Shown here: one piece after another, positions 3,340 through 62,290 of the stretch
Layout of the letters: each line of letters begins with the position of its first letter
Position numbering within the stretch: the first letter of the stretch is position 1
Notes under the pieces: model-generated
What the model was told of the DNA's origin: nothing
The model's database searches: none
The model's input: the letters and a program-made list of their open reading frames with translations, nothing else
Translations under genes and position numbers: made by a program
Source of the DNA: Atopsyche davidsoni
Lineage: Eukaryota > Arthropoda > Insecta > Trichoptera > Hydrobiosidae
Direction of reading: 5' to 3'
Assembly (NCBI GenBank): GCA_022113835.1
Contig: JAILWY010000014.1
Location: 6,387,501-6,451,500, forward strand
DNA: 64,000 nt

Positions 3340-3432
3340 AAATAAAAACACTCCATGTCCTTGAATGGTATTTGAACCGACGACAACCTGTTGCGTAAGA
3401 GATCGATGCGAACTGAACCAAGTCACTCAACC
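3340..3432 (-). mobile_element. tRNA-like SINE candidate
   Basis: On the minus strand, an A-box-like TTGGTTCAGTTCG is followed about 30 bases later by GTCGGTTCAAATACC, a near-consensus B box, preceded by TTGAGTGAC. The following sequence is T-rich. Spacing fits a tRNA-derived SINE head or a decayed tRNA; no second copy was found in this window. Confidence 0.4.
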
Positions 3433-3683
3433 GGACACGGTCCTTTTTTAATATATAACAATCGTAAACACGATATTACTTTCATAGTTTTGTGTAATAC
3501 CTTAGGTGGAAATTTTTATAAACTTTAATCAAATAGCCTTTTAAATTGTACTATTTTATTCAATTCAAATGTTTATATGTAATATTTAAAAATTATGTGC
3601 CAATTTATCTTAGCTAGCCAGACAAAAAATCTACCAGAGTTTTCCCTTTCAACCAACATAGATATTCTTTTCTTTATATATTG

Positions 3684-3722
3684 CCAATACCAATGAGTAT
3701 GTTACCTCATCGGTATTGGAAA
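3684..3722. repeat. Hairpin at the edge of a repeat-like block
   Basis: CCAATACCAATGAG and CTCATCGGTATTGG form an imperfect inverted repeat (one mismatch) around a short loop. It precedes a GC-richer block at 3730-3960. Confidence 0.6.
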
Positions 3723-3729
3723 AACTCTG

Positions 3730-3960
3730 TGATGTAGGATTTCAGTGACTTGGCAAGAAGGCAAATTTCGGAATAGTAGCATGCCGAAAAACCTCACAAC
3801 TACCTTCTATGCTTTCAGCTACTCGCTTACCTGCCTCTTCCCTCGCGACCCCTAACTCAGTCTGCGAGTTGTCGGGGTGAGTGAGGCTAATGACTCCTCT
3901 CTCAGATCTGGGCTTAGATGTGTGCCGCTCGCAAAATAAATACGAAAAGCTGGATGATTC
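3730..3960. repeat. GC-richer block, probable old interspersed repeat
   Basis: The block contains GTCGGGGTGAGTGAGGCTAA and CAGATCTGGGCTTAGATGTG, which look like interspersed-repeat sequence from memory of lepidopteran genomes, but no boundaries or ORF can be set. On the minus strand it also holds a strong donor-like GCAG|GTAAGC at about 3830. No second copy lies in the window. Confidence 0.3.
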
Positions 3961-6900
3961 GACCTAAGTCGCATATAATCCGTGTGCACATTATACATTT
4001 GCATAGGGTTTTGAAAAAACATTGATATAATTTTGCAATTAAAGTTTTACAAAATAATACAGATAATAATAATTATCACATTCAGCGTAATAAATTGAGC
4101 AGCTGTTGTGACTTTTTGATAGTCGCTATCATGTGTTAACTATTTCCATTGAAAATAAATAATTACGCCTAACGAGCAACCAGATATTAGCATAAATACT
4201 TAGATACGTATGCATGGTAAACATCTTCATAAAATACAAAGCGGTTAAGCAATCGATAAACATCTGTGCAAAAAGACTACTTTCCATCAGATAAATGCAA
4301 ACAAATCTAGAAACATCCATCCGGGCTTATCCGGCCGTCGCAGTTTTCATCGGAAGTAACATTTCCGTGGCGTGCCTGAACGCCATTTTAAATTCGACAT
4401 ACACAAGCGCCCGTAAAAGTTTGTAAAACGTATTGCTTTAATTTCGATAATTGGGGAGAAACCATTCGCGCGCCGCCAACCGCGAAAAAATTAACAGCCG
4501 AAATCCGAACTTGAAACATTTTTGGTTTTATTTTTAAATATTGAGGCTAGTAGGTTTTACAGTTTTTATGGGTTTTTTTTTTCATTACAGTGTAAATAGA
4601 ATTTTACGATAACATTTTTCTCGCACGATATAAATTGAAATTTTAATAAAAATAACAGAAGTTATTATTTCCATAACATTATTCTAAGCCGGGAAAGGGT
4701 ATGTGAAAAAGAATGTGCTTTTTTTAAATATATATTAAAACAAAAAACGTAAGCTGTTATAAAAAATTTATAAATATTTGATTGGTAGTATTGAATGATT
4801 TTTGTGATATTTGTATTGGTGTATTTATAATTGTTTCCGAAGAGATTTTTCACAGATGCAAATGAAAAACTTTTAGGATAAGCAAAACATTTATGAAACT
4901 ACTCTTTCAAGAAGAACCGCGAACTACATTTACCATTCACACCCGAGTCCAAATAAATTCAATTCCCATAGATAAGAGTAAAGTTTAGCGTCGGCCGACA
5001 ACGCCACACACTCAACAGCCATAAAGCAAAAGTTTTGGAAGAACGGCCAGGCTAAATTAGCACCTCGCGTGCCGGCCACAAGAGCGATAGTGCGATGCGC
5101 CGCCTTGGCAGGATAGAAAAAGCCAACGCTCAATGCTGCCATACGTATAAAATATAGCATAACCTTGATTTCACGATATCTTCGCTTACATTTTATGTGA
5201 ATTCTTATGCAGATAAAGTACTTTAGTTAATTAAATGCTTAAAAAAGTCTACAGTTTCCGGTGAGCTCGCAAAAATATATATTTTACGAAGGAAAGCTGA
5301 GATTGCTCGTGTACTTATGAATATTTTTTGAAAACCGTTTGAATATATATTACAATGGCTGTCAGAAACTTGAATGGAGAAAGGAAGAGCGGAACCTTAG
5401 GCATAGAAAATATATGATAGAGTTAAATCAATATTGATTGATTTAGACTTCTCCGCTCGTACAATTTATCTCAAATACATAATACTCCTTACTTCTTTTG
5501 AATATTACGAAGCCATTTTTTACAGACTCATATCGAGGTCTATCTTTGCATACCATTCGTACTCAATAATCGCTTGGCATTTACCGAAAATCGCTTTTTT
5601 AGAATAAAAATACGAAATAAAATTTAAAGCTGTTGAAAAAACTGTAAATTACACCATTAGTTTATTTATATCTAAACAAAAGAAAATTATACCGGATTTC
5701 GACTTTTTTCATTTCGTAAAATAAAATGCATAACTCTTGGCTTAAAACATAAAAATAAATTGCGAAATGTAATAGTAATGTGGACGAAATATAAAAAGCA
5801 GGTAGTCATAATCGTTTACCCACGAACCCGATTCTCAAAATCGCCAATATTATGAATGCATACTATAAAATTAAATACATTTGTAAAAAAAAAAAAAAAA
5901 GAGGTACATTTATCTTGACGAAAATGGCGGGTCATCCCAATTCCTAAGCGTCACTTCATATTTAGAAAGTTGCCATTTCTAAAAATAAGACAAGAGACGG
6001 GAAGGCAAGTATGAATGTGCCACGATGGTGTCGCTTCCATCACTCCACGAGGAACGATCACGTTTGGAGATAGTGTAATATTTATAATAATATTACACGA
6101 AACAAAAATTTCAATTACATCATTAAATCATTTTTAATAATTTCTGATTTACTGTGAGGTATGAAGTATTTGGTACAAAAACTCATTATTTGATTAATTG
6201 ATATATGTTCTATCAATATCTAATACTTTTTTTTGTACTGTTAAATAATTTTTTTTTTGTATTAATCAGATAAAAAACACAGGAATGAAAACAAATGTGT
6301 TTAAGCATAAACAAAAAATACAATTCACGCAACAGTAATGATTTTATTCAAAATAAAGTAATATTCAATTTGAATATACAGAACTTGCCTTCCGGGCGTG
6401 TCATGTTGTTAAATGTCTTCGTTAAATTATTTAATGAACATTTGTGTAGGTTGTCTTATTTGGGATATAATTAGCATTTACAGTTCCTAAACATCGGGGT
6501 GATAATGAGAGGGGGTAGGTTTCGATGATTGAATTCGCGCGACTCTTCCGGGCGTCGTCGTTGCTCCGCGGGGACACCCTTTCAGGGGCGGCCAACTCGC
6601 CGACTCGCTCACTGAGCAAGCTCCTGCCAACATTTATTACGTTACGGCCATCTTGATCGTTTGCTTTTTGAAACGTGAACCGCGTGTTTTATTTTATTTT
6701 GTAAAATTAATTCATAGCTGTTTAAAAATGGCAAGTTTTTTTGCTGGTGTACTCATTTCTTCCCTCGCTGTGAAATGTTACTTTTTTTAACTTGTATAAC
6801 ATTATTTTGAAACTCTATTTATTTTATAATTATTTCAAAAATAGTTTTCTAAATATAACTACGGTGTAAATAATGTTTGTTATTTAGATCAGTATTATAT

Positions 6901-20313: not shown

Positions 20314-20584
20314 GGTTATCAATATTTTTGATAGAGAGTACTTGGTGGAATTCCATTTTAATATTTTAAAGTTCAGTTTGATAATGCCAAACGTGAAAGG
20401 TTGGCGAAAACGGTCACCAATAAAAATTAACGTGTGGAAAAATCACTATCACTATACATTGTATTGTTAAAATAATAATAGTTTTGTTTTAATGTATGAA
20501 ATAGCTTAAATATTGTAATTATAGTTTAGTTTAGTGAGAATTAAAAAAACTAATTGGAAATCAGAATAGCCTTATATAGAGAAT

Positions 20585-20595
20585 AGGCATGACGA
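20585..20595 (+). repeat. Left terminal inverted repeat of the YqaJ/THAP transposon
   Basis: AGGCATGACGA, identical to the reverse complement of 23117-23127. Including the flanking GAAT (20581-20584) the two ends match over 15 bp. Confidence 0.8.
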
Positions 20596-20766
20596 CAGTA
20601 TCAAAGAATCAAAGAAATAATTATTTTAAGGGAAAATACATATTAAAAGGATTCAAAAAACTGATTTAGTTTTATTTAAAAATCTAAGATTAATAAGATT
20701 TTCAACAAATTAAAAGGTTAAAATACTGCAATCGGCCATTTTGACTGAAACACCAATCACAGCGCA

Positions 20767-20774
20767 TGACGTCA
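20767..20774. promoter_or_regulatory. CRE-type palindrome in the YqaJ gene promoter
   Basis: TGACGTCA (core of ATGACGTCAT), about 250 bp upstream of the YqaJ start codon. An identical octamer sits upstream of the THAP gene at 22948-22955. This is a known CREB/ATF-type binding sequence; use by the element is inference. Confidence 0.4.
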
Positions 20775-20801
20775 TACCACCGTAAGCAACTCTATGGTAT
20801 T

Positions 20802-21000
20802 CAAACTTCACTGTGTTTTGTTGTGACCTCCGTATTGCTTGCGAATTTGGATTGATTTTTTAATAATCTCAAGTGTGCTAATCTTGCAAACAAACTTCGC
20901 TGTGTTTTGTTGTGACCGTATACGCATTTGGATTGCTTTTTTAAAAGTCTAAAGTGTGTTAATCTTGCAAACAAACTTCGCTGTTTTATTGTGACCGTAT
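20802..21000 (+). repeat. Subterminal tandem repeat in the YqaJ 5' leader
   Basis: Two and a half imperfect copies of an 80-90-bp unit that begins CAAACTTCGCTGTGTTTTGT, starting near 20802, 20891 and 20972. The copies share TTGTGACC and AGTGTGTTAATCTTGC blocks. They lie directly upstream of the YqaJ start codon at 21017. Subterminal repeats are common transposase-binding or promoter arrays in DNA transposons; the role here is inferred. Confidence 0.75.
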
Positions 21001-21016
21001 TATTTACTCTCTAACA

Positions 21017-22545
21017 ATGGAATCAGGCTTTGTTAAAGCAAACAGCTCAAATTTGCCCAGGATTGATTCATCGATGGTGAGAGATTTCTTTATAACTGAT
21101 AAAGAATTTTGCTCACCCGAGTTCCGAAACGTCAAAATTTCCTTGTAAGTACATTTTGTTTATATTTATCTTTAGCACTAGATACAATCAACTTAGTAAA
21201 AATTAAACTCGTTTGAACTCATAGGAGTTTATTTTAATTAAATTACTCTCTACTCAACTAAATTATTAGTCTAGTCCGAACTAGCCTTTACGAAGCACTT
21301 CACTTATTTGGTAGACACCTAATATCTGATAATCACCAAGGCAGTGTGTATGTATTTATTATAATTAATTTCATTTCTTTCAGGTCTTCAAGACCATCAT
21401 ATGGGGATGATGCAATCAGTTACGTAGAACTAAAACGGGAAGGAAACATCTGTGTAGTAAAATGCAAGATTTGCCCAGAGCATAAAGTCCATGCAAAATT
21501 ATATGCTGTAACATTGATGGTTGATGAATATGAAGAAAGGGTAATATCAATCCAATGCCATGATTGTGTTGCTGCCCAGGGCGGATGTAAGCATGCCGCA
21601 GCGCTGCTTACGTGGGTCCATAGACGAAGCGAAGAACCTTCTTGCACTGAAGTTCTATGTTACTGGCAGAAATCGAAGTTATCAAGAGTTGGCACTACCT
21701 TGAAATTCAAATCTGCAAAAGATGTATCTAATGGTAGCCCTATACTGCCTTCTAACTCTGCAGGTCTTGAAATTTTTTTAGAAGAAGTAAAAACAAGGAA
21801 TTTAAACAACTGCGAGCTATTAGTGTATCATCATGATTGTAATAGTGATAAACTACGTAGTGTCTCAATGCACCAACTTGTGCTTACATATAAAGAAGAG
21901 TGCTGTGACTTATTTTTAAGTAAAGTGAGTTTGACGACAGTAGGACTTATCAAAAATATTGAAAATTTAACCAGGGACCAGTTCAACAATAACCTTTGGT
22001 ATGAACTGAGGTACGGCAGGGTAACAGCTTCTAGAGCTTACGAAGTGAGTCGGTGCCAGACCGCTGATGGGACTCTGATTTCTACTATCATGGGGGGGAA
22101 GATACCAGACACACCAGCAATGAAACGAGGAAGATTTTTAGAAAATAAAGTAAAACAAGTAATTAGCAAGAAACTAGGGAAAAAAATCACGAGTGCTGGA
22201 CTTTTCATATCGCAAAAACATCCAATGTTAGCAGGTTCCCCTGATGGAATATGTGGAGATAGTATTGTGGAGATAAAATGTCCCATGAGCGACAAAACAT
22301 ATCTCCAGTATATAAAAGATGGAAAACCCACCAAGAAATGCTTTGCCCAGATACAAATGCAAATGTATCTTAGTGGTCTTAAAAATTGTTACTTTTGCGT
22401 TGCAGACCCAAATTTTTCCACTAGTCAAGATGTTGAAATTTTATTTATATCTTATAATGATCAATATATGTCAGGCTTTCTTGAAAGTGTAATAATGTTT
22501 TGGAAATCCCATGTTTACCCGTTATTATATAAAAGTATAAAATAG
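21017..22545 (+). CDS. SWIM zinc finger + YqaJ exonuclease-like protein, two exons
   Basis: Predicted as join(21017..21144, 21384..22545), giving 429 residues. Exon 1 opens with ATGGAATCAGG and encodes 42 residues; donor CCTT|GTAAGT and acceptor TTTCTTTCAG|GTCTTC restore the frame through a split Leu codon. A contiguous frame also runs into the intron from 21346, but the spliced model gives the conserved N-terminus. Residues about 70-115 hold Cys pairs (KCKICPEH) and a SWIM-like finger (C101, C104, C111, H113). Residues about 250-425 form a YqaJ/lambda-exonuclease-like fold: RYGRVTAS, GRFLE (E296), SPDG (D330), EIKCP (E339, K341) and the QIQMQMY helix. All catalytic residues of the D-E-K nuclease site are present and there are no frame breaks, so the gene looks intact. 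It is the partner protein of the transposon, not a host gene. Whether it processes DNA ends during transposition is unknown. Confidence 0.85.
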
Positions 22546-22574
22546 AAATTAAAAAGGCAAAAATTTCATGTGTT

Positions 22575-22871
22575 TTATTTAATAAGAGAATCTTGTATAT
22601 TAACCAAACCACAAGCTATAGTTATCACATCATCAATAACTTTAACCAAACTTAAGTTAAGACAGTCATGTGATTTTAACATTTTGTGGTCTTCACAGAA
22701 ATAAATTGATGAATTCGTGACTACGTTTTTCGTGTTTCGCCGTGCGAGCTTAAACCACTTATATCTTATAATTTTCTTATTTGGAACATATATAAACAGC
22801 TTGTTGGGTGTTACTATCGAAGTGTTCGTACACTGAGGTACTGCACACCACTTATAGAATTTGGAATTCAT
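22575..22871 (-). pseudogene. THAP gene of the transposon, transposase core deleted in frame
   Basis: A 98-codon frame from ATG to stop. Residues 1-62 are the first two-thirds of a THAP zinc finger: C9-x4-C14, the TPNKLFIYVP segment, W39, and C59-x2-H62, satisfying the C2CH pattern. The AVPTF-type box expected about 20 residues after the His is absent. Instead the frame continues into a 30-residue tail (VIDDVITIACGLVNIQDS) that resembles, from memory, the C-terminus of THAP-DDE transposases. The simplest reading is an internal deletion that removed the DDE domain yet kept frame. An AATAAA overlaps the stop. The gene is convergent with the nuclease gene, 29 bp between stops. The product cannot be a transposase and its DNA binding is doubtful. 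Confidence 0.7.
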
Positions 22872-22947
22872 TTATACGAATTTCGTTTACTGTCTTCAAT
22901 GCAAACACAATGACATGTCAGTTAACAATGATAGTCGACAGGTGGTG

Positions 22948-22955
22948 TGACGTCA
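22948..22955. promoter_or_regulatory. CRE-type palindrome upstream of the THAP gene
   Basis: TGACGTCA, about 75 bp upstream of the minus-strand THAP ATG, mirroring the copy at the other end of the transposon. Confidence 0.4.
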
Positions 22956-23116
22956 GAGCGGACGCGATGACACTAGCGAGCGTTTTCGCGCACTTTTGAA
23001 AAAATATTATAAAAATGGCTTTAAACTTCGTTAAACTCAAGTTTTTTAACGAAATAAAGTTTTTTTCGTAAATAGTAAACGTGTACCCCCATTATGGAAG
23101 AGGATTTGAAAATCTT

Positions 23117-23127
23117 TCGTCATGCCT
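23117..23127 (-). repeat. Right terminal inverted repeat of the YqaJ/THAP transposon
   Basis: TCGTCATGCCT on the plus strand, the exact inverse of the left end; flanked by AT then TC. Beyond 15 bp the two ends show only weak similarity. Confidence 0.8.
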
Positions 23128-26100
23128 ATTCAATGCCGATATTATTTTAATAATCGCACAGATAAAAAGGATCACAAATTATATGTAGGTAAATATTACA
23201 GTATACAATAATTATATATATATATATATAAAATCCCGTTTTAAATGATCGCAATATTTATATATATTACCTTAATTAATTTTACTATCCTTTTCTGCCC
23301 CACTTTGAATTATTTTAATAATGTTTGCTAAAGCCCCCGAGAATATACATTTATTGTTCTGTTTGTCTTTCCTATCTTCTGTATCGGTACACAACATTAT
23401 TACGTTGTGTTTATTTTTAGTTTGATTTATTTATTTTCGCCCTAATAAATAGGAGAGGTATCATAAACAAAGATCTGATATCAGTCCGTAGGAGAACGAA
23501 AGCAGCTTTGATAATATAACATGATTAATATCTCCAAGTCCTTGGGAAGGTAAACAAGCTGATAACAATCAGGAAAAATTTAAAAAATTAGCGTTTATTA
23601 AACTGTACCTTTTTTTTATTAAATTAATGTAAAAACTTTAACAATAGTCTCATGAAACACTTTGTGTGGCGCCTAGTTTGATAGAATTCAGTCAGTAAAA
23701 TTATGAAAAATAATCTACTCCAGCTATTTGGTAACCTTCCATAGAAAATTTCAGATTCCGAATACGTACATTATTATTCAACAAGAGAAAGGTTATTAAA
23801 AAAATATAATATTCGGGCTTTGGGGTACATTCAAGTTTTGAATTTAAATTGTATAAATATTCTCCTTTTCTCCGAAAAAACCTTTTTAATACATTTCATG
23901 AGATATGTATTATATATACAACTACCTCTCCCAAAATAAAAAAATGTTTGCTTCTGAGGATACTTATTTCTTTAAACAAATATATAATAATTTCATAGTA
24001 AAAAAAAACTAAATTGAATCTTATGAACAACTGTAAAACACGCGAAAATCTATATTTGATAGAATTTTCTAAAAATAAGTTCTGGCTTCTCGTTACGCCG
24101 TGGTGCTGTTTGTTGTGCCCAATGCGAGACTGTTTGTATTCGGCCAAGGAAGTTTATTTGTTATTGATTTCGAATAAAATTTATAATCGCGTATCGGAGG
24201 TGATAAATACGTCCGTGCGGTGTGGTGAATGATGTTTAATGCCATGAGTTATGGCGAGGTTATGTATGGCCCATGCGTGGTACAAAACGAACATACATTA
24301 CATTTTATTGAATTATATTTATATCGATAAAAACTCCGAAGCTTGAGTAATACGTCCCTATTGGATAATTTTTAATTCAAATTACGTAAAAAGTCAAGAA
24401 CAATTGTCAAAGCAAAAATCACGTTTTAAATTATTTATCTCTTTTCTTTAAATCGTTTAATAACAATATAACTGAAAATTACTTATTTAAGGTTGGAATC
24501 ATTTAGGTTGAGTAAACGAGTTCATAGGAATTTTCAATGTATGAATAGGCTCCACTATTTGGTGAACTGATTCAGAAAATCTCGTGAAAAATTTACTATT
24601 TATAACATAAAAAAGAGGTTTTTAAAAAAAATATAAACACATTATATATTTCTCAATCTTTATTTGAAAAAATACCCTCATCATTATGACATAGTTGTAC
24701 CGATTGTGATGGATTTTAATTCTCCAAAAAAAATGCATAAGTCTTGTAATTAGATTTAAATAATATAAAATCAAATATTTTTACAAACATTCCGGTTTGT
24801 TGGCGATTTATGAATAAATATAACTGCTAATAATGAATTCGATCAAATGCTTGGACAAGTAAAAATAAATTTATTCCGAGAAATTATTTTATTCTAGGAG
24901 TATCTCTCGGCGTAGGCGGCCCAGAATTGGTATGCGTCCCGCGGCAGGCGTAAGTATCGAGAAGTCTTCCGCCCTCGGGACTAAATAATAGCGCTGCCCT
25001 TTGTGTCTCGCGCATGATCTCTCGTCACGTAAAAAACAAACTGAAACTAATTTACAATATAACAAACAAAACTACGACCCCGTCGTACGGAGGTGGAACA
25101 CGCCGTGGAACTCACCTCCCTTCCGTCGCTACGTGCGCATCTTTCATCACCATTTCATACTATTGATAAATGGACGCCAAACATACAACACCCGAGATAA
25201 AAGCAATACAGCTCACAAATACAATCATTGTACATTGTACATTGTGATTGTTAAAACTAAAACTAAAAGTATACAAATTAAAAATAAAAAAAAACAAATA
25301 AAATATTATTATAATGGAGAGTGTAACAAGTAAACGTTTTTTCACACAAGCAAGTAAGTTGCTCGGTCAGTATTTATTGGTAAACTCTAACGCAAACTTC
25401 AAAGTCGGGATCTGAAGAAGCCCTTTAGAAGCCCAGACGTCTGTCTATACATCGTTGAGGCAATAATGGTGAGGGCGTGCGTGAATTCGAAACTTCTCCG
25501 CGGAATGGCTGTTTTCGCTGAAAGCTCGAAGACAAGAAATAAATCTATTGTAAATATAGTATACATCGCCCTTGTTTGTGTGAATGTTTGGAAAGGATCT
25601 TTATGTTTGAGCTGAATCAAAAGCGCGTAGCGAAAATATTACTGCTCTGGAATAACAATAATAAAGTTAAGTTAAAAAAAAAAAATTGTGATTTACATTT
25701 ATAGTGAATTTCGAAGCCGGTGTAGGTAAACTAAATTTGTTAAAATAACTATTTGTTTGAACTAATATTTATATTTTATGTTACCGCTCTAATTGTTACC
25801 ACAATTACCACAGTTATCAATAAACCACTTAACCAACAAAAATTCAATCAAAGAACTTATTATATATCATAAAATATATTCTTGCTATGAAAATCCAACT
25901 GAAATATAAAATATTTCAGTAGCGTTTGGGTCAATGTGATACATTATGTAAGCATCTAATGATTCATCAACCAAATTCACAAAAATACATATCCTTTAAG
26001 TAGATACTTATATGAATGTAATAAACACGGCAATAAATAAGTGAGATTTTTTGGTTTTATTAGGAGAGCAGCCGGTTAAGCTGGTCTTCCCTTTTTGCAG

Positions 26101-61273: not shown

Positions 61274-62284
61274 TTATTTCACCTTCTGTTTTTCCGGCTG
61301 AGGTAAAACAGCAGCAACCATTTTTTGCAGGATCTCCGTGAATATCAGAGTTCCAAAGAACACGAGGAGAGTTCCGACCCAGTGCGCGATCGTGAAGGGA
61401 TTTCTAAAATAAATAATGGAGATGATGAGCGACACGAACTTCCGCAAGGTAACGGTCAAGGTCACGGTAAGCGAAGCGCACTCCGTGGTGAGCACGTACA
61501 CGCTGCCTATGCACATGAACTGAGTCAAGACGTTGGCCAGCAAGTACACCCTGGCGGTAGGCATCCCCATGAAGGACAACATAGGAATCGTCTCGCCGCT
61601 GATTTCCCAGTGCTGCCACAGGTTGGATCCTAGAAACCCGAAGAGTGGCAGCGGAAGAGCGTGGGTGTAGAAGAGAGCTTCCCAGGGAAACTTTCCGTGC
61701 TTTTGGTAGAGGGTCTCTTGGAAAATTCCCATCCGCGCCGACAAAAAGAGCGCAAAGGTCAAGATTGCGATGCCAACAGCCCACCAAAAGATGTCCATCG
61801 GTCGGAGAGCTGCCTCTTCTTCTGCCGTTCTGTTTTCTGAGCCGTGGGCTTTCACTTCCGTTCCCGACTGGATGGTGCATATCACGATTCCTGCCGTTAT
61901 CATGATCACTGATAAATACTTCAATGGCGTGTATGACTTCTTGAGAATGACGATTCCCATCACCATGTTGGCCATTAGCGACCCCGCTCGAAAGATCATA
62001 TGCAGGGGCATCGGAATGTTGAAGTCGAAAGCGTAATTGTTGGCGACGCTAGTCAGAAAGAAGAATATCACTAGAGCAAAGTAGTCCTTCATGGGAATCT
62101 GTCTCTTTTCCGTTCCAAACTTGGAAGTGAAGATGAAGCCGTACACAGCGATAAAGGCAAACTGGAGAAAGGTGAGGAGGTTTCCGCACCCTGGATCTTC
62201 CTTCACGAGCAACTCCAGAAAGATGACATTAGAGCAGCAACCAACAAACACGCCGGCGATGGCCAGCGTCGCTTTGACGTTCAT
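61274..62284 (-). CDS. SLC35B4: SLC35B4/Efr-type nucleotide-sugar transporter, complete
   Basis: A 336-residue, strongly hydrophobic protein with about ten predicted membrane segments, matching the usual length of the SLC35B4 family (UDP-xylose/UDP-GlcNAc transporter in mammals; the Drosophila member Efr is an ER GDP-fucose transporter). Recognisable family stretches are GCCSNVIFLELLVKEDPG near residue 15, FNIPMPLHMIFRAGSLMANM near 88-107, and the LTTECASLTVTL...TLRKFVSL region near 262-285, followed by IIYFRNPF and HWVGT. The C-terminus ends KQKVK, a KxKxx dilysine signal typical of ER retrieval, so an ER/Golgi location is inferred. The ATG is preceded by a good splice acceptor six bases upstream, which supports this start and an untranslated first exon. 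An AATAAA overlaps the stop codon. The substrate cannot be decided from sequence alone. The overlapping reading frames on the other strand are shadows. Confidence 0.95.
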   Translation of the reverse strand: MNVKATLAIAGVFVGCCSNVIFLELLVKEDPGCGNLLTFLQFAFIAVYGFIFTSKFGTEKRQIPMKDYFALVIFFFLTSVANNYAFDFNIPMPLHMIFRAGSLMANMVMGIVILKKSYTPLKYLSVIMITAGIVICTIQSGTEVKAHGSENRTAEEEAALRPMDIFWWAVGIAILTFALFLSARMGIFQETLYQKHGKFPWEALFYTHALPLPLFGFLGSNLWQHWEISGETIPMLSFMGMPTARVYLLANVLTQFMCIGSVYVLTTECASLTVTLTVTLRKFVSLIISIIYFRNPFTIAHWVGTLLVFFGTLIFTEILQKMVAAVLPQPEKQKVK

Positions 62285-62290
62285 CTTGGA

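Follow-up and report, generated by a model that had tools for sequence, protein, structure and literature searches.

How does a compact transposon come to keep an intact nuclease gene when the catalytic core of its own transposase is gone? The question is raised by a locus of the trichopteran Atopsyche davidsoni, which lies in a stretch of 64,000 nucleotides that we refer to as the window (assembly GCA_022113835.1, contig JAILWY010000014.1, positions 6,387,501 to 6,451,500). From our point of view, the element is very probably a recent non-autonomous internal-deletion derivative of an insect ISL2EU (PHIS superfamily) transposon, which was spread in trans and in which the YqaJ gene has most likely been kept because the deletion missed it.

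Structure of the element and its two genes

The features of the element are collected in Table 1. Its termini, at 20585 and 23127, read AGGCATGACGA(C/A)AG in inverted orientation within the surroundings GA-AT ... AT-TC and form a terminal inverted repeat (TIR) of about 14 bp with one mismatch and AG as the first bases. Taken by itself this match is suggestive, as its local score of 33 exceeds the best score of 30 among 300 mononucleotide shuffles but is exceeded elsewhere in the window, where at least 8 of 1000 positional controls (overlapping and from three places) scored 34-39, so that the copies in the genome were used to decide. These copies speak clearly: the end bases are identical in 19 of 19 derivative copies, and AAT...ATT flanks are found at 20 of 20 loci if the DDE-bearing relative L027 is included. 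For the sister copy L021, at least 40 places in the genome match the joined flanks, and at each of the six empty sites that were read there is one AT, compared to two at the filled site. The repeat in which L021 sits, with at least 40 other genome matches, itself looks like a coding transposable element.

Table 1. Features of the ISL2EU derivative, in positions of the window
Feature	Positions	Strand	Basis or remark
Whole non-autonomous ISL2EU element	20585..23127		2543 bp; 16 other full-length copies 2538-2540 bp
5' target site duplication AT, context A|AT|T	20583..20584		sequence and empty sites of sister copy L021
5' terminal inverted repeat AGGCATGACGACAG	20585..20598	+	AGGCATGACGA at 5' end in 19/19 derivative copies
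Direct duplication (84% identity between units of about 110-120 bp)	20802..21000	+	just 5' of the YqaJ start codon
YqaJ exon 1, start codon to donor GTAAGT	21017..21144	+	alignment to annotated homologues
YqaJ intron, GT...AG, 239 bp	21145..21383	+	alignment to annotated homologues
YqaJ exon 2 up to the stop codon, with SWIM-like Cys/His stretch and PD-(D/E)xK domain of lambda-exonuclease type	21384..22545	+	Pfam, structure model
In-frame insertion of 3 bp, one extra Thr	21933..21935	+	unique to the window copy among 17 aligned
98-codon THAP-tail frame, which joins transposase residues 1-62 and the last 35	22578..22871	-	Pfam, homologue alignment; open in 16/17 full-length copies
Junction of the 1,545-bp internal deletion	22685..22686	-	comparison with DDE-bearing L027; 1-bp microhomology
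3' terminal inverted repeat	23114..23127	-	same ends in derivative copies
3' target site duplication AT	23128..23129		sequence, copies, L021 empty sites

The YqaJ gene encodes 429 aa in the window copy and 428 aa in 15 other open full-length copies, and annotated lepidopteran proteins of 428 aa are colinear with it across the splice junction. Its nearest protein relatives are lepidopteran, with at most 78% identity to annotated moth and butterfly proteins over the full length, and some relatives stem from beetles; a scan of IMG/VR for viral relatives of the nuclease returned two loci at 23-28% identity. Exon 2 matches the Pfam families YqaJ (E 1.2e-14) and Viral_alk_exo (E 2.9e-7) as well as the sequences of LHK-Exo and lambda exonuclease (E 4.4e-12 to 9.7e-11), with which E253, D287, E296 and K298 (exon-2 numbering) are in register. 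Each of these residues, which we take to be the catalytic ones, is conserved in at least 90% of 77 sequences. In addition, the nine best PDB matches of an AlphaFold2 model (mean pLDDT 85.2) are chains of LHK-Exo and lambda exonuclease. By alignment and model, the YqaJ protein has a lambda-exonuclease-like PD-(D/E)xK fold with the catalytic E, D, E and K, and would be expected to act as a 5'-3' exonuclease. The zinc motif of exon 2 has the form C-x2-C...GGC-x-H, a SWIM-like variant, and UniRef names some of the homologues SWIM-type. The direct duplication upstream of the gene possibly represents putative promoter or binding repeats.

The second gene, convergent to the first, is a remnant of the transposase. 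Residues 1-62 of its 98-aa product match the N-terminus of full-length THAP/DDE_Tnp_4 proteins (e.g. of 549-576 aa), and residues 64-98 match the C-terminus of these same proteins; for the transposase of Plutella (LOC119692329, P0122) the identities are 76% to the THAP piece and 89% to the tail. Pfam detects the THAP domain with an E value of 3.5e-5 over 57 of 87 profile positions, and the C2CH residues are retained. The deletion runs from directly after the THAP Cys-His ligands to the last 35-36 transposase codons and has thereby removed the rest of the THAP domain, the intron, the HTH and the DDE core. It is single, in frame and common to all derivative copies, and neither the two ends nor the YqaJ gene were affected by it. 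A corresponding fusion was not found among the other database proteins returned, including 18 short relatives. As the HTH and DDE parts are absent and only the cut THAP domain and the C-terminal 35 residues remain of a transposase that comprises THAP, HTH and DDE, we file the element as a non-autonomous derivative and not as a complete ISL2EU member. With one exception, a frame of 116 aa antisense to YqaJ, the remaining listed frames of at least 60 aa in the element are shorter than those of both genes. Elsewhere in the window, the longest other open frame, of 338 aa at 61274-62290 on the minus strand, presumably resembles a nucleotide-sugar transporter.

An earlier note, made from the letters of the window, had described a compact ISL2EU-type transposon with matched terminal repeats and exactly two convergent genes, and this description is borne out by at least 17 full-length copies that end at the same bases and by the opposite orientation of the YqaJ gene and the 98-codon frame. 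Its claim of an intact nuclease gene agrees with the splice sites, colinear with those of annotated homologues, and with the catalytic E, D and E-x-K aligned to lambda exonuclease. The SWIM Cys/His stretch it named is present in the variant form given above. The partner gene has indeed lost its catalytic core, yet it is not merely degraded, the loss being one clean in-frame deletion common to the copies.

Copies and relatives in the genome

The genome searched was the assembly of the window itself (370.7 Mb in 80 contigs), and all copy counts are lower bounds because the scoring covered 40 of 423 candidates. At least 17 full-length copies, the window copy included, are present at about 100% identity and all end at exactly the same bases, and two more (L026 on C11 and L028 on C1) have been split by insertions, of about 1.66 kb and about 1.0 kb. 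As L012 and L013 have identical 12-base flanks on both sides and were counted as a single site, this amounts to at least 19 copies at no fewer than 18 distinct sites. Among the 17 full-length copies, pairwise divergence averages 0.14% and reaches 0.39% at most. The YqaJ frame is open at full length in all of them except the frameshifted L018 (16 of 17), and in 16 of the 19 derivatives if L026 (frame change) and L028 (insert) are counted as broken as well, while L023 carries a replacement of the conserved proline of the SPDG motif. The single full-length copy with a broken 98-codon frame is L024. The derivative set is multi-copy, shares its ends with a full-length relative and carries the identical deletion throughout.

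This relative, L027 (C28:4463889-4467934), measures 4,046 bp end to end, is about 97% identical to the derivative and keeps the segment deleted there. Its YqaJ frame is intact, its transposase is present at full length with two stops, its flanks are AAT/ATT, and its left end differs by one changed base (AGGCGTGACG). A second DDE-bearing copy at C28:3580190-3582166 (in L061, C28:3578500-3586500) has no stop in the matched coding stretches of its transposase, but contains an intron-like insertion of about 121 bp with stops that is absent from L027, and its frame ends two residues early. This copy has no right end, and its YqaJ gene is frameshifted, with the catalytic lysine changed. A search of the assembly with the P0122 transposase gave 73 matches, only two of which span the catalytic core, neither intact. 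In several other species, a transposase and a YqaJ protein are found on equal-sized contigs with close gene numbers (e.g. LOC114364789/LOC114364791 of Ostrinia and LOC112055435/LOC112055440 of Bicyclus).

At least five further deletion structures can be mapped on L027, all without an intact YqaJ gene and two of them multi-copy. In about nine loci, of which some are incomplete or have lost more, positions 1-782 of L027 are joined to 3419-4046, and about seven loci (one incomplete) consist of 1-542, 1118-1218 and 3499-4046, whereas forms such as L030, L032 and L034 are single cases. The expected AAT or ATT is found at 35 of 40 ends of the diverged loci, of which one was entered twice (L029 is L061). 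Since multi-copy derivatives without an intact YqaJ gene exist, YqaJ is probably not required in cis for spread, and its survival in the derivative looks like an accident of the position of the deletion. Repeated fragments of the ISL2EU YqaJ region also lie close together at L041 and L042 (C29:4572500-4593300), apparently through local duplication of a dead copy.

Origin of the derivative and retention of the nuclease gene

The comparison with L027 shows that one 1,545-bp deletion took the HTH and the DDE core and brought the first THAP exon into frame with the C-terminal end of the transposase. The copies show that a founder with that deletion then settled at no fewer than 18 sites, where AT was duplicated within A|AT|T. 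Internal deletions from the repair of excision gaps have been described for other cut-and-paste elements, and the present one may have arisen in the same manner. As the element is without a transposase of its own, and as no intact autonomous element was found in the assembly, we infer that it moved by cut-and-paste with transposase provided in trans by an autonomous relative, which would now be lost, dead, unassembled or segregating. That the YqaJ gene is intact most likely reflects the position of the deletion, which spared it, and the youth of the burst, rather than a need for the gene in cis; this explanation is supported though not proven. In full-length elements, YqaJ would probably serve as a lambda-exonuclease-like nuclease on the DNA ends made by transposition, for example in donor-break resection and homologue repair; by analogy with lambda-exonuclease-like enzymes, which resect DNA ends, donor or target ends may be processed.

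Too few changes have accumulated inside the burst for dN/dS, and the derivative was hence compared with L027, with the C28:3580 copy as the outgroup. The YqaJ genes differ by nine nonsynonymous and three synonymous changes (dN/dS 0.78), 11 of the 12 (8 N, 3 S) being assigned to the derivative branch. Under neutrality, the probability of eight or fewer nonsynonymous changes among 11 is 0.41, and under constraint it amounts to 0.002, 0.049, 0.17 and 0.45 for omega values of 0.1, 0.2, 0.3 and 0.5, respectively. The changes are thus compatible with neutrality and fit strong constraint poorly, while moderate constraint (omega 0.3-0.5) is compatible as well, all on few data. YqaJ exon 2 differs from L027 at 10 of 1158 positions and is no less diverged than the 5' non-coding part (3 of 397) or the intron (1 of 239), whereas the 3' non-coding part, with 8 of 249, is more diverged than YqaJ. 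As about 5.5% of single changes create a stop, a YqaJ frame that is still open after about eleven changes is unremarkable. Pairwise omega against other fragments ranges from 0.28 to 1.87 and was not relied on, as it mixes pseudogene branches.

One could instead speculate that YqaJ is kept by selection, such that the derivatives supply the nuclease in trans and the transposase comes from a copy with a broken YqaJ gene, for example that at C28:3580190-3582166, which would amount to a natural split into two proteins. All 17 full-length open YqaJ frames (16 in derivatives, one in L027) indeed reside on elements without a working transposase, and the one DDE frame whose coding exons are free of stops lies in the copy with the frameshifted YqaJ gene and the changed catalytic lysine. 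However, a diffusible helper confers no benefit on its own copy, the 8 N and 3 S on the derivative branch include one that removes a lysine present in 37 of 39 aligned homologues, and the five or more other deletion forms, two of them multi-copy, lack an intact YqaJ gene. Moreover, 121 positions of the C-terminal part that was compared do not vary among 11 annotated relatives, and at these the C28:3580 transposase shows 10 departures, as against 4 for L027 and 0-6 for the annotated relatives themselves (leave-one-out). The misaligned P0145, which departed at 78 of 103 leave-one-out columns, had been dropped from this set; with P0145 kept (12 relatives), the C28:3580 copy departs at 1 and L027 at 3 of 25 invariant columns. 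We regard such a division of labour as improbable, and likewise, if anything slightly more so, the idea that the 98-aa THAP-tail protein acts as a repressor. The latter follows the analogy of the KP-type P elements, multi-copy non-autonomous elements in which an internal deletion leaves an N-terminal product that contains the THAP domain, a domain also found in the P transposase; the protein would compete for the ends and thereby damp transposition. The in-frame deletion, the retained C2CH residues and the open frame in 16 of the 17 full-length copies would agree with this role, but in-frame joining has a chance of one in three, an open frame is expected at 0.14% divergence, and no such fusion occurs among the 18 short database relatives returned. 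In addition, the break lies directly after the last zinc ligand and leaves only 57 of the 87 THAP profile positions, and since the rest of the domain has been removed, DNA binding by the 98-aa protein is doubtful. A KP-like product would combine an intact DNA-binding domain with the loss of the catalytic core; here the core is gone and the THAP domain is cut.

That YqaJ might be a single-copy host gene flanked by coincidental repeats, the counter-case named in the earlier note, could be argued from the few other places in the window at which the TIR match is equalled or exceeded. It is nevertheless rejected by copy number and practically inconceivable, given 19 near-identical copies with the same end bases at 18 distinct sites and the empty sites for one copy; the multi-copy element with these ends, whose absence would have refuted the note, is indeed present. 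The note's statement that no DDE transposase survives applies to the window element, but its proposed search for full-length DDE copies led to the two relatives in the same genome, neither an intact autonomous element, one having two stops and the other no right end. Between the two alternatives it offered, very recent deletion and spread is favoured by the 0.14% divergence, whereas selection on the nuclease independent of the transposase finds no support in the 8 N and 3 S changes and the 3 of 19 broken YqaJ frames. The dN/dS of YqaJ, which it had recommended comparing across copies, came out at 0.78 against L027, and the changes on the derivative branch accord with moderate constraint as well as with neutrality. 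Our preferred reading thus remains that of a young deletion derivative in which the nuclease gene happened to be spared.

Comparison with known systems

As far as the available text on the ISL2EU group describes it (Han et al., 2015, PMC4482050), the window element is like its members in the AT duplication within A|AT|T, a feature of the group, in the YqaJ gene beside a THAP/HTH/DDE transposase gene in its full-length relatives, and in the animal host. It differs in that the DDE and HTH parts are deleted, in its length of 2.5 kb compared to an average of about 4.8 kb, and in its TIR, which starts with AG instead of the GG that is usual among the TIRs of 6-259 bp given there. By its YqaJ protein it is 78% identical, over the full length, to Amyelois LOC132903725 (P0001). 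In contrast to KP, the element has lost part of its THAP domain and still has another gene that is intact.

KolobokE is likewise a eukaryotic DDE transposon with a lambda-exonuclease-like nuclease, but according to the part of its description available (PMC9587614) nuclease and transposase form one protein in which the nuclease lies downstream, the transposase is a different one, and the duplication is TTAA. An assignment of the window element to KolobokE is ruled out by the different transposase and the AT duplication. In the same genome we observed a KolobokE-like transposon of 6.6 kb in nine copies (C3:7339812-7340465 and eight loci, L047 and L049-L056), with a 778-aa frame that is open in 9 of 9 copies, TTAA at either end of all four copies checked, and Mutator and YqaJ matches in Pfam in the one copy scanned, all of which agrees with KolobokE as far as described in PMC9587614. 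Our literature search for a Mutator-like transposase with YqaJ found no paper, and the search for Kolobok and exonuclease led to KolobokE.

In Spy, the sister clade of ISL2EU by transposase, the accessible description (PMC11304231) gives a solitary transposase ORF and no second gene, and reports cgSpy and cvSpy as active in human cells with the transposase as the sole helper. That two transposon lineages are paired with a YqaJ nuclease favours a role in transposition, whereas the activity of Spy with its transposase alone counts on the other side, and the literature found leaves the role of YqaJ in eukaryotic cut-and-paste elements unsettled. As such, this genome offers natural material on YqaJ function, with young copies that have YqaJ and no transposase, diverged derivatives with neither, and the KolobokE-like fusion, and its multi-copy ISL2EU derivatives without an intact YqaJ gene argue against a need for YqaJ in cis.

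Overall, ISL2EU elements with a YqaJ gene have already been described, and the element in the window is a well-supported new derivative of this known group and not a new kind of system.
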